Below, piece by piece: positions 16,495 to 60,466 of a stretch of DNA of 64,000 nucleotides. The notes under the pieces were generated by a model. That model was not told where the DNA came from, ran no database searches, and saw only the letters and a program-made list of their open reading frames with translations. Origin of the DNA: Gammaproteobacteria bacterium. Its GTDB lineage: Bacteria > Pseudomonadota > Gammaproteobacteria > Steroidobacterales > Foliamicaceae. The stretch's first letter is position 1, and each line of letters opens with the position of its first letter. A program made the translations under genes and the position numbers. The stretch lies in NCBI GenBank assembly GCA_026708965.1, contig JAPOTY010000037.1, positions 215,949 through 279,948 on the forward strand, given 5' to 3'.

Positions 16495-17409
16495 TCAGGA
16501 GAGCACGCCGGCGGCGCGCCGCTCGTCGAGCACATCGCTACGAAAACGGTACAGCCGCGCTGGCCGCCCGCCAGTGCCCTCCCTATGCACTCCGGTATCC
16601 TCAACCAAGCGCTGGTTTGCTACGAGACGCCGGAAATTCTGTTTGTGCAGGCCGCGGCCTATGATCGATTCAATCACCCGCTGCAGTTCAAACAGCGTGA
16701 ACTCCGCCGGCATCAGTTCAAACACCACCGGCCTATAGCGCAGTTTCCCCCGCATCCGCCCAAGAGCGGTGGCGAGGATGCGCCGATGATCCAACGCCAT
16801 GCCTGAGCCGCTCAGGATGCGCGAGGCCGGCGCCGGGGCGCCCCGGTCGTGCCAGGCTTCGCTCACCAGCGCCGCTTCATAGAGCAGTTCATAGCGCTCA
16901 AGAACAAGATCGGGATTCCAGCCAGCCTTGCCCAGGCCAAGGCAGCGGTCGATCCGGACGGCGCGCGCCGCGCGAGTGGCATCGGCGCGCGCCCTGCCCT
17001 TCCAGGCTCCAAGGGACTGCCGGATCGGATCGCGCTGCCCTTGCTCCATGCGCTGGTCTTCCCAAGGAAAGAATTCGTAACAGCGCCGCCATTCCGCGCT
17101 GGCTGAGCACAGGTCATGCCGCACCAGCGCAAGATACGCCACGGTGATGGTTCGGTCGGGAACGCGCGGCCAGAAATTGCGGCGCCGGTCGCCGAAGGTG
17201 TAGAGCTGCTCCAGCCATGCGGGCTCCAGCCCCACTTGGCGCCGCAGCAGCCGCCGGGTGCCGAATTCCAGCGTTTGGTCGCGCGTGATCCGCAGGCGGT
17301 CGCCGGGCAATCTGGCCTTGCCTTCGTCCCTAAGCGCCAGAACCATGGGTTCGTTGTCAGCCACGGTCAATACAACCGCGCTGAGCTCCACGCTGATCGC
17401 TTCAGTCAC
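16495..17409 (-). CDS. nrtR: NrtR-type regulator (Nudix-like domain plus winged helix)
   Basis: A 304-residue protein with an N-terminal Nudix-like fold (SVELSAVVLTVADNEPMVLA, then GLEPAWLEQLYTFGDRRRNF) and a C-terminal NrtR winged helix (EFTLFELQRVIESIIGRGLH, then NFRRLVANQRLVEDTG and GGRPARLYRF). I do not see an intact GX5EX7REUXEEXGU Nudix catalytic box, as usual for sensor-type NrtR proteins. NrtR repressors bind ADP-ribose or related metabolites and control NAD synthesis. The gene starts with GTG and diverges from nadA, its probable target, across a spacer of 426 bases. The central part (RADATRAARAVRIDRCLGLG) is longer than in small NrtR proteins. Confidence 0.8.
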   Translation of the reverse strand: MTEAISVELSAVVLTVADNEPMVLALRDEGKARLPGDRLRITRDQTLEFGTRRLLRRQVGLEPAWLEQLYTFGDRRRNFWPRVPDRTITVAYLALVRHDLCSASAEWRRCYEFFPWEDQRMEQGQRDPIRQSLGAWKGRARADATRAARAVRIDRCLGLGKAGWNPDLVLERYELLYEAALVSEAWHDRGAPAPASRILSGSGMALDHRRILATALGRMRGKLRYRPVVFELMPAEFTLFELQRVIESIIGRGLHKQNFRRLVANQRLVEDTGVHREGTGGRPARLYRFRSDVLDERRAAGVLS

Positions 17410-17462
17410 TCCGTCATTCTAGCCCGCCTATCCCTCCATTCCCCAGTCCAGCCTAATCCTTC

Positions 17463-17583
17463 GGTGCCTTCCTGATGCCTTCTTTTCAGGAGCGTTGAAG
17501 CCAGGATGGCGGAACCGAGCCAGTGGGCGCCAATAGCTTGGCGCGCACAGCGCCTCTTGAAAAGAGGGCATCAGGAAGGCACC
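17463..17583. repeat. Large imperfect hairpin repeat, second type
   Basis: Inverted arms at 17463-17494 and 17551-17583 pair over about 28-30 positions with few mismatches (shared run GGTGCCTTCCTGATGCC, then TCTTTTCA). The 56-base interior holds two smaller perfect inverted repeats, GCCA/TGGC and GCGCCAA/TTGGCGC. The topology copies that of the hairpin 30 bases downstream, but the interior is unrelated in sequence. With that neighbour it fills most of the 426-base gap between nrtR and nadA; I see no gene there. Confidence 0.85.
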
Positions 17584-17613
17584 TCTATCCGAATAAGCAA
17601 ATGAGCAGCTGTA

Positions 17614-17723
17614 GCCTTTCTTGTCATCCTCCTCTTCCGGGAGTGTCGGCGACAGGGATGTCGCCGCCAAGCCCCATGGATGGGTTCATGCGTCTCCCGG
17701 AAGAGGAGGATGACAAGAAAGGC
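17614..17723 (-). repeat. Hairpin repeat family, copy 1
   Basis: Perfect 30-bp arms (17614-17643 with 17694-17723) flank a 50-base interior. Read on the minus strand the interior begins ACGCATGAACCC and contains two nested inverted repeats, CCCAT/ATGGG and CGGCGACA/TGTCGCCG. The same interior recurs at 41465-41512 and 60388-60437, with arms of different sequence. It lies in the nrtR-nadA spacer, about 58 bases upstream of the nadA -35 box. Short reading frames through it are spurious. Confidence 0.95.
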
Positions 17724-17780
17724 GGGATCGAAGCATCCAGACAATCCCGGCAGAGGAATTGGCGGGAGGGCGGAGGGTGT

Positions 17781-17809
17781 TTGACAAGCCTTATGCTCAT
17801 TTGTAGCAT
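17781..17809 (+). promoter_or_regulatory. Predicted sigma-70 promoter of nadA
   Basis: A perfect -35 TTGACA (17781-17786), a 17-base spacer and a -10 TAGCAT (17804-17809) lie 27 bases ahead of the nadA start codon, on the right strand, with AGAGGA 5 bases before the ATG. It is one of the best sigma-70 promoters visible in the window. Confidence 0.75.
17793..17809. promoter_or_regulatory. Candidate NrtR operator overlapping the nadA -10 box
   Basis: Inverted repeat ATGCT-N7-AGCAT (17793-17797 and 17805-17809) whose right arm covers the -10 hexamer, an ideal place for a repressor. The neighbouring nrtR gene makes NrtR the obvious candidate ligand. I cannot verify the match to any NrtR motif without a motif library, so the assignment is inferred from position. 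Confidence 0.5.
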
Positions 17810-17835
17810 TACAGCTAGGCAAACAGAGGATTCCA

Positions 17836-18843
17836 ATGCAGATGCAGCCCAGCAGCCATCTTGATTTCAACGCCGATGTCCGGCGCGCCACCGCGCCGGT
17901 ATGGGCGCGCCTATCGGATGTCATCCCCGAGGTGGAATGGCCTCTGCACGCTCCGTATATCGCCCGCATCAACGAACTGAAGCGCGAGCGCGACGCTGTG
18001 ATTCTGGTGCATAACTACCAGACCCCGGAGATATTCCACGGAGTTGCCGACCATTCCGGGGATTCACTGGAGCTGGCCCGGCTGGGCGCCGAGGCCAAGG
18101 CCGGCGTGATTCTCATGTGCGGCGTGCATTTCATGGCTGAAACAGCCAAGATACTGGCGCCGGAAAAAACGGTTCTGATCCCCGATCTTGAGGCCGGCTG
18201 TTCACTTGCAGCCGCCATCACCGGCGAGGACGTGCGCTTGCTCAAGCAGAAGTATCCGGGCGTGCCGGTGGTGACTTATGTCAACACCTCCGCCGAAGTC
18301 AAGGCCGAGTCCGATATTTGCTGCACCTCGGCGAACGCCGTGCGGATTGTCGAATCGCTTGGCGCGGACCGCGTGATCTTTCTTCCTGATGGCTATCTCG
18401 GCCGTTACGTTGCCAGCAAGACCGATGTCGAGATGATTCTCTGGGAGGGCAGTTGCGAAGTGCACGAGCGCTTCACGGCCGACGAAATAAGGAGCTATCG
18501 GAATTCGCACCAAGGAATCCAGGTGATCGCCCATCCGGAGTGCCCGCCCGATGTGCTGGCGGAAGCCGACTTTGTGGGCTCGACTTCGGCAATGATCCGC
18601 TACGTGGGCGAACGCAAACCCCGCCGCGTGGTCATGGTCACGGAGTGCTCGATGAGCGACAACGTGGCGGTGGAGCATCCCGAGGTGGATTTCGTGCGCC
18701 CTTGCAACCTCTGCCCGCATATGAAGCGCATTACCCTGCCCAAGATCCTGGCCGCGCTGGAAAGCCTTCAGCCCGAGGTGTGCGTGCCCGCGGCCACCGC
18801 CGAGCGGGCGCGCCTCGCGGTGGCAAGGATGCTGCGAACCTGA
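17836..18843 (+). CDS. nadA: Quinolinate synthase
   Basis: A 335-residue [4Fe-4S] enzyme condensing iminoaspartate with dihydroxyacetone phosphate to quinolinate, the second step of de novo NAD synthesis. The three cluster cysteines fit C95 (LMCGVHFMAETAK), C207 (WEGSCEVHERF) and C290 or C293 (RPCNLCPHMKRI). The N-terminal VHNYQTPEI and the HSGDSL motif are standard. Length is normal. It is monocistronic here: nadB and nadC are not in the window, and the next gene is a signalling protein 54 bases on. Expression is probably controlled by the divergent NrtR-like regulator through the operator at the -10 box. Confidence 0.96.
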   Translation: MQMQPSSHLDFNADVRRATAPVWARLSDVIPEVEWPLHAPYIARINELKRERDAVILVHNYQTPEIFHGVADHSGDSLELARLGAEAKAGVILMCGVHFMAETAKILAPEKTVLIPDLEAGCSLAAAITGEDVRLLKQKYPGVPVVTYVNTSAEVKAESDICCTSANAVRIVESLGADRVIFLPDGYLGRYVASKTDVEMILWEGSCEVHERFTADEIRSYRNSHQGIQVIAHPECPPDVLAEADFVGSTSAMIRYVGERKPRRVVMVTECSMSDNVAVEHPEVDFVRPCNLCPHMKRITLPKILAALESLQPEVCVPAATAERARLAVARMLRT

Positions 18844-41391: not shown

Positions 41392-41436
41392 CCGCACCCG
41401 GCCGTCGGGGCGGCGCGGACTTTTGCCCGCCCTTCG

Positions 41437-41540
41437 CCTTTCCTTGCCGCCCTTTTTCCGTGAGACGCATGAACCCATCCATGGGGCTTGCTTCGGCATC
41501 CTGCCTCCGATACTCCCGGAAAAAGGGCGGCGAGGAAAGG
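41437..41540 (+). repeat. Hairpin repeat family, copy 2
   Basis: Arms at 41437-41464 and 41513-41540 pair at 26 of 28 positions (one further position is a G-T pair) around a 48-base interior beginning ACGCATGAACCC, like the copies at 17.6 and 60.4 kb. The nested repeat CCCAT/ATGGG is kept; the second one is shortened to GGCA/TGCC. It lies in the 254-base gap between the TonB receptor and the acetoacetyl-CoA synthetase gene. Confidence 0.93.
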
Positions 41541-41563
41541 CTTCACTTGTCAGCTTAAGGCAT

Positions 41564-60358: not shown

Positions 60359-60466
60359 GCCCTTTCACCGCCCCTTTCCCGCAGGAGACGCATGAACCCG
60401 TCCATGGGGCTTGGCGGCGGCTGTCCTGCCGGCGACACTCCTGCGGGAAAGGGGCGGTGAAAGGGC
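60359..60466 (+). repeat. Hairpin repeat family, copy 3
   Basis: Perfect 29-bp arms (60359-60387 and 60438-60466) around a 50-base interior that begins ACGCATGAACCC and carries two nested inverted repeats, CCC(G)T/ATGGG-like and CGGCGGC/GCCGGCG with one mismatch each. It lies just after the fhs terminator and 110 bases before the TonB receptor start. The arms share no long identity with those of the copies at 17.6 and 41.4 kb. Confidence 0.95.

Follow-up and report, generated by a model that had tools for sequence, protein, structure and literature searches.

The long hairpin at positions 17614 to 17723 of the 64,000-nucleotide stretch of gammaproteobacterial DNA analysed here (the window) raises the question of what kind of element combines a nearly constant core with outer arms that differ between copies and stay self-complementary, and whether such arms are maintained by selection on a fold or by copying one arm from the other. 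The three hairpins set out in a preliminary description of the window are real: in copies 1, 2 and 3, arms of 30, 29 and 29 bp (30/30, 27/29 and 29/29 arm pairs matched) flank a near-constant core of 50, 48 and 50 nt. DNA folding z-scores were −13.4, −8.6 and −12.8, with none of 200 shuffles equally stable in each case, and when the window was scanned for gapless hairpins with an exact 10-base seed, an arm score of at least 18 and a core of 4–130 nt, exactly these three came up. The boundaries first given hold for copies 1 and 3, those of copy 2 were one base short at both ends, and a diverged fourth element next to copy 1 had been overlooked; it is absent from the gapless scan because its arms contain mismatches. 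The elements are listed here with scores from R1, a covariance model built from 55 elements of the host genus and delta-proteobacterial genomes.

17614..17723, GGA-loop strand +: copy 1, whole element; arms 17614-17643 and 17694-17723, core 17644-17693; R1 97 bits, E 9e-19
17648..17665, strand +: inner hairpin 1 of copy 1, GGCGACAGGGATGTCGCC, with GGA in the loop; contains ACAGGGATGT
17673..17684, strand +: inner hairpin 2 of copy 1, CCC-ATGGAT-GGG
41436..41541, GGA strand −: copy 2, whole element; arms 41436-41464 and 41513-41541, core 41465-41512; R1 78.9 bits
60359..60466, GGA strand −: copy 3, whole element; arms 60359-60387 and 60438-60466, core 60388-60437; R1 88.6 bits
17463..17583, strand +: fourth, diverged element with a 'type 2' core, adjoining copy 1; R1 match 17481-17565 on +, 33.3 bits, E 9e-5; fold z −9.3

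In the direction in which the core was first read it lies on the − strand in copy 1 and on the + strand in copies 2 and 3. Read from the other strand, the conserved core (about 50 nt) forms two small hairpins with GGA loops, and the whole unit runs left arm, hairpin 1 (GGA loop), a CCAAG or CCGAG linker, hairpin 2 (CCC-ATGGAT-GGG), TTCATGCGT and right arm. Copy 1 and the fourth element share the gap between a divergent NrtR-type regulator and nadA (window 16495-18843). A 'type 2' element with the core ACGCCATCCTGGCTCGATTC... and the same arm plan is found at the copy-1 site in two other genomes of the genus (L244 in G003, L247 in G006), and the element at 17463-17583 seems related to it.

The family is abundant in its host. 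The 12-mer ACGCATGAACCC occurs 71 times in the 2.47-Mb source genome (G000) against 0 for the reversed control; 58 of these places pass the arm-score cut-off, the other 13 being cut by contig ends, shortened or rearranged, and R1 matches 117 places in the same genome. With up to 150 candidates scored in each genome, eight further genomes of the genus hold from 20 to at least 149 R1 matches each, with at least 149 in G005. A 22-mer allowed up to two mismatches was matched in 10 of 58 genomes, namely the source genome, its eight congeners and, with one match, G030. More distantly, when 17 candidates per genome were scored under strict filters, R1 picked up relatives in at least 39 of the 274 genomes examined in the class; it matches 45 places in G123, 78 in G294 and 123 in G304, and 4 to 112 in eight genomes reached via delta-proteobacterial loci; among the matches listed for an exact 26-mer, the named genomes were Gammaproteobacteria MAGs and Desulfuromonadales or other Deltaproteobacteria. 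Blastn at E 0.01 gave no match for a delta element in plasmids and phages, or for copy 1 in plasmids and E. coli genomes. Seven viral contigs contain a 17-mer of the core, but their R1 scores are at chance level (best 19.1 bits, E 0.12). The exact core strings were not found in the literature searched.

Some further observations concern single genomes. In the source genome a core lies within 45 bases of the first base in 7 of 47 contigs (C6, C24, C27, C32, C33, C44 and C47), and the assembly seems to break at these hairpins. G304 (contig C1) has its 123 R1 matches in a 5.1-Mb genome of two contigs; five of the six elements read there have similar arms with recurring mismatches, unlike most copies in the source genome, and the six have less perfect arms than those read in G294. 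No replication-strand bias was found in G304, where 34 of 72 listed elements (of the 123 matches) are on the + strand and a two-arc bias as large as the one observed arises in 153 of 500 shuffles. Three delta copies (L084, L104, L110) carry an extra outer inverted repeat like GTAACTATTCAGC...GCTGAATAGTTAC beyond the arms, for which a literature search with two 11-mers gave nothing relevant, judged by title.

Comparison between relatives bears out the proposal that these are dispersed elements differing in presence: an intergenic site that holds the unit in one genome can lack it at the orthologous position in another. At the copy-1 site, between the NrtR-type regulator and nadA, both flanks are kept in seven genomes of the genus, of which G000, G003 and G006 have elements and G001, G004, G005 and G007 have none; at another site an element stands directly 3' of a stop codon in G006 and G007 and is absent from G000. 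At the copy-1 site the boundaries are too blurred, without a clean empty site, for a target duplication to be read. Presence and absence at orthologous sites is as in a MITE, with arms that vary among copies in place of constant terminal inverted repeats. No partner enzyme was found among seven proteins scanned between or near elements, all of them ordinary; one is a D12 DNA methyltransferase adjoining an element in G008. Neither was an autonomous version with a gene between the arms found among 12 tested copies lacking a right arm, ten of which have no near-complementary arm in the stretch examined (at least 11 mismatches) and two of which match a neighbouring copy. For the 157 of 170 elements with enough flank (gene calls by a simple custom codon score), the adjoining genes are convergent in 51 cases, co-directional in 47 and 45 (the two orientations of the element) and divergent in 11; 1 element lies inside a gene and 2 are unclear. 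The GGA strand is thus neutral to co-directional genes (47:45), and the distribution offers no hint that transcripts preferentially carry it. Beyond the right arm, the consensus for G000, G005 and G006 has no T run of the kind that marks an intrinsic terminator, and the view that these are not simply terminators stands.

The arms change in step. From 191 core matches, 178 had arms and 170 were unique elements, with loci repeating G005 and delta loci left out; 39 of 40 further loci were added (L298 fell below score), giving a merged set of 205. Orthology was defined as both flanks matching in different genomes, which yielded 57 pairs at 25 sites, and 36 minimum-spanning-tree edges were counted, four others being set aside because their arms had changed by over 30% or contained over two gaps. 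Of the 1043 arm pairs aligned, 936 had stayed paired without change and 5 were mismatches that had not changed; in 67 both sides had changed with pairing kept, in 32 pairing was broken, and 3 were mismatched in both. Compensated double changes thus stand at 67 against 2.4 expected by chance, and the suggestion that the arms are homologous and compensated is supported at these 25 sites; an earlier, smaller count agrees (32 compensated and 22 one-sided in 836 pairs). Arms diverge by 8.3 and 8.1% per side and flanks by 7.9%. With flank divergence below 6%, from 6 to 9% and at or above 9%, broken pairs number 9/264, 15/513 and 8/266 (about 3% throughout) and compensated pairs 11/264, 23/513 and 33/266 (4%, 4% and 12%). 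In G294, six elements read have arms of 23–39 bp, mismatch-free in five and with one mismatch in the sixth, and by eye the arms have little in common beyond TGTGAC or TATGA beside the core; this is consistent with renewal or extension of arms by copying and hard to explain by descent of a single arm sequence.

The spectrum of these changes bears on how they arose. If selection acted through G:U intermediates, transitions should dominate and wobble mismatches should favour one strand, and neither is seen. Compensated changes comprise 33 of transition type and 34 of transversion type, a ratio like that in the flanks along these edges, where 69,200 sites show 2653 transitions and 2792 transversions. 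Mismatches left over at orthologous sites are A/C 10, G/T 9 and other 13, without strand preference, and those in the 58 copies of the source genome are A/C 8, G/T 5 and other 7.

Orthologous elements at two sites carry the core in opposite orientations. In all, 19 pairs combined a match in both flanks with a reversed core. In 16 of them the arms are dissimilar or the flanks fail to abut; these may be independent insertions and were left uncounted, leaving three pairs as clean inversions. At the first site, L163 (G005) and L096 stand against L231 (G003) with abutting flanks; 29 of 30 inner arm pairs are the same, the single arm mismatch flips along with the core, and flipping the hairpin raises identity over 364 columns from 84.9% as found to 96.2%. 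A further locus, L116 (G007), reads like L096 and is probably from the same genome. At the second site, L303 (G004) and L317 (G005) have flanks that abut within a base (83 and 88%), with 25 of 30 arm pairs the same and 5 compensated. Misassembly at inverted repeats is a possible source of such inversions, as many of the assemblies are fragmented; bearing on this, the inverted units are 112–124 bp long and the partner genome G004 is a single 3.1-Mb contig. Inverted loops are a named footprint of template switching (PMC8794818, in the part of that paper available to us).

The arms vary between copies and the core is held. Our search pattern did not force GGA in the hairpin 1 region; it stands there in 156 of 157 short cores and in 4 of 13 long ones. 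In hairpin 2 the loop is AYGGAY, but TCC/GGA and most of the stem lay within the pattern, so their constancy in this set is not independent, and hairpin 1 often has a shorter loop. The outer stem pair of hairpin 2, free in the pattern, is C:G in 137, T:A in 32 and C:A in 1 of 170 elements, and hairpin 1 is closed by T:A in 90, C:G in 78 and C:C in 2. GGA is kept on different stems in G294, where UACAGGGA[U/C]GUA occurs in all six elements read (all found with R1, which was trained on GGA-bearing copies), and in one element of G003, whose hairpin 2 reads UACAGGGAUGUA. In several long cores (L021, L022, L031, L065, L103, L132, L135) an extra stem around GGGACATC/GGGTCATC replaces the GGA loop of hairpin 1, and short and long versions of this hairpin swap between orthologs (L125/L135, L132/L207). 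Because loops are conserved while stems covary, which copying alone does not supply, the folded core seems to be recognised by some factor. Going by the motif, CsrA is a plausible candidate for binding the GGA loops; its SELEX consensus is RUACARGGAUGU (PMC7652899). The csrA gene is present in the source genome and all 8 congeners.

The element is also related to a catalogued candidate RNA family, TwoAYGGAY (Rfam RF01731). The preliminary description had missed both this kinship and the GGA loops on the other strand. R1 matches 3 of 20 Rfam TwoAYGGAY loci at E 2e-10 to 5e-6, with four matches (L270 57.1 bits, L269 43.7 and 37.3, L266 37.2), the remaining 17 loci giving nothing better than E 1.4; the matched loci share the AGC linker and GCGUC junction, and L270 is a clear bridge in sequence between elements of the window type and RF01731. 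Conversely, the RF01731 model scores 30.2 and 30.9 bits on the delta copies L110 and L083, below its gathering cut-off of 43, and up to E 10 has no match on three copies of the source genome (L025-L027) or on the delta copies L090, L099 and L107; it has none in the source genome either. Across the class it matches 17 of 274 genomes (at most nine candidates scored per genome), of which only G129, G241 and G273 also match R1 and 14 do not, including the copy-rich G214, G324 and G296. Because only these 3 of 17 are positive for both, the tie is one between subfamilies: at the level of sequence models, the window elements and TwoAYGGAY are related subfamilies, not one tight family.

Taken together, the element is probably a dispersed, non-autonomous palindromic DNA repeat of the TwoAYGGAY kind whose arms template one another. 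Of the two routes put forward at the outset, selected folding or copying of one arm from the other, copying at the DNA level is favoured and RNA selection less so, because compensated changes have a flank-like transition:transversion ratio, leftover mismatches favour neither strand, the elements show no preferred orientation relative to genes and two orthologous sites carry an inverted core; the arms are most likely kept complementary by template switching between them. The hairpin would extrude on single-stranded DNA during replication, the polymerase would switch template to the opposite arm and copy it, and a mutation in one arm would thereby be erased or passed to its partner, with double switches or recombination between the arms now and then flipping the core. 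The core could stay constant because it is recognised, either by a putative mobilising enzyme that acts on single-stranded DNA in its folded state or, should the element be transcribed, by a Csr/Rsm-type RNA-binding protein. Selection for perfect pairing could also yield compensated changes, the clean inversions come from only two sites, and the 8% flank divergence is probably below the neutral rate, the flanks being mostly coding, so that free drift of the arms is not proven by it.

The main rival reading, in which the core is a selected two-site CsrA/RsmA-binding RNA (a decoy or mRNA-stability element) with the long stem kept for folding, we regard as unlikely, while giving it some weight. 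It would account well for the near-invariant GGA of hairpin 1 in short cores, for a hairpin 2 that is an ANGGAN-type hexaloop with one covarying stem pair, and for the G294 and G003 variants, which are close to the SELEX consensus; CsrA binding has moreover been predicted for TwoAYGGAY in the 2014 RMfam paper (PMC4333381, available text), and CsrA is found in 17/17 RF01731-positive and 36/39 R1-positive genomes of the class. That last figure hardly departs from the 235/274 genomes overall, so the association across genomes is weak, and in G251 (98% complete), which R1 matches 8 times, no CsrA exceeds the cut-off; the same holds for the R1-positive G065 and G156, though these are only 75% and 67% complete. 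In addition, GGA is missing from hairpin 1 in 9 of 13 long cores, the GGA strand has no preferred direction relative to genes, and the compensated changes show neither transition excess nor wobble strand bias. A reading that joins the two, in which the element is a self-templating flippable switch and core inversion sets which strand, and so which neighbouring transcript, carries the CsrA-type pair of GGA hairpins, seems improbable; if true, it would give a genome at least 100 independently flipping post-transcriptional control sites.

We hold it equally improbable that whole elements are replaced by other copies, by re-insertion or ectopic gene conversion, bringing both arms in together. The four edges set aside for strongly different or gapped arms at one site, the 16 reversed pairs with dissimilar arms or non-abutting flanks, and the swaps of hairpin 1 versions between orthologs would all fit such replacement; by eye, however, several counted pairs, among them L189/L226, L193/L219 and L129/L210, keep site-specific arms with isolated compensated changes, which count against it because another copy would hardly supply them. 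Very improbable is an ordinary REP/BIME moved by a tyrosine transposase, or a CGTC-tagged REP, even though high copy number and an intergenic position biased to gene 3' ends and convergent gaps recall REPs (PMC3733652). The earlier idea of a REP element with a RAYT transposase finds no backing, since Y1_Tnp (E ≤0.001) was matched in 0 of 9 genus genomes and in 5 of 14 control genomes; the unit exceeds 100 bp with 30-bp variable arms, no GTAG tag was seen, and by inspection the junction GACGC...GCGTC has the wrong sense for a CGTC tag on an 8–9 bp stem. Inspection against the available part of PMC3733652 led us to reject a CGTC-tagged REP, as the unpaired CGTC tag, 8–9 bp stem, 4–5 nt loop and CCA tail were not seen.

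Compensated base changes are commonly taken as proof of a selected RNA fold. In this repeat family, by contrast, compensated changes occur alongside an inverted core and strand symmetry, a combination that points to copying of DNA. The family would lend itself to testing template switching in bacteria, and it would caution against relying on covariation in RNA discovery, especially for TwoAYGGAY, listed in 2010 as probably an RNA (PMC2864571, in the part available).

Among known systems, template-switch hairpins as described in the available part of PMC8794818 share clustered compensated changes and an inverted loop region; those cases are RNA genes (rRNA, microRNA), whereas ours is a repeat family with 30-bp arms. 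REPs and BIMEs are likewise high-copy, palindromic and extragenic, mostly downstream of genes or between convergent genes, and CGTC REPs likewise have no known transposase, but REPs are 20–40 bp with end tags, against 100–130 bp here with a constant core, variable arms and no RAYT (PMC3733652, as far as available). CsrA-binding RNAs of the CsrB/RsmZ type also carry GGA in hairpin loops, the ANGGAN hexaloop and two closely spaced sites (PMC7652899, available text), and differ from our element, known here from DNA alone, with its many dispersed copies, either orientation to genes and long arms. Closest is TwoAYGGAY, with the same long outer stem, two GGA-loop hairpins, AGC linker, GCGUC junction and occurrence in Gammaproteobacteria, and with homology at the profile level; Rfam types it as Cis-reg, and the parts of the literature searched contain no description of it as a mobile high-copy repeat, whereas the elements described here form such a repeat, with covarying arms.
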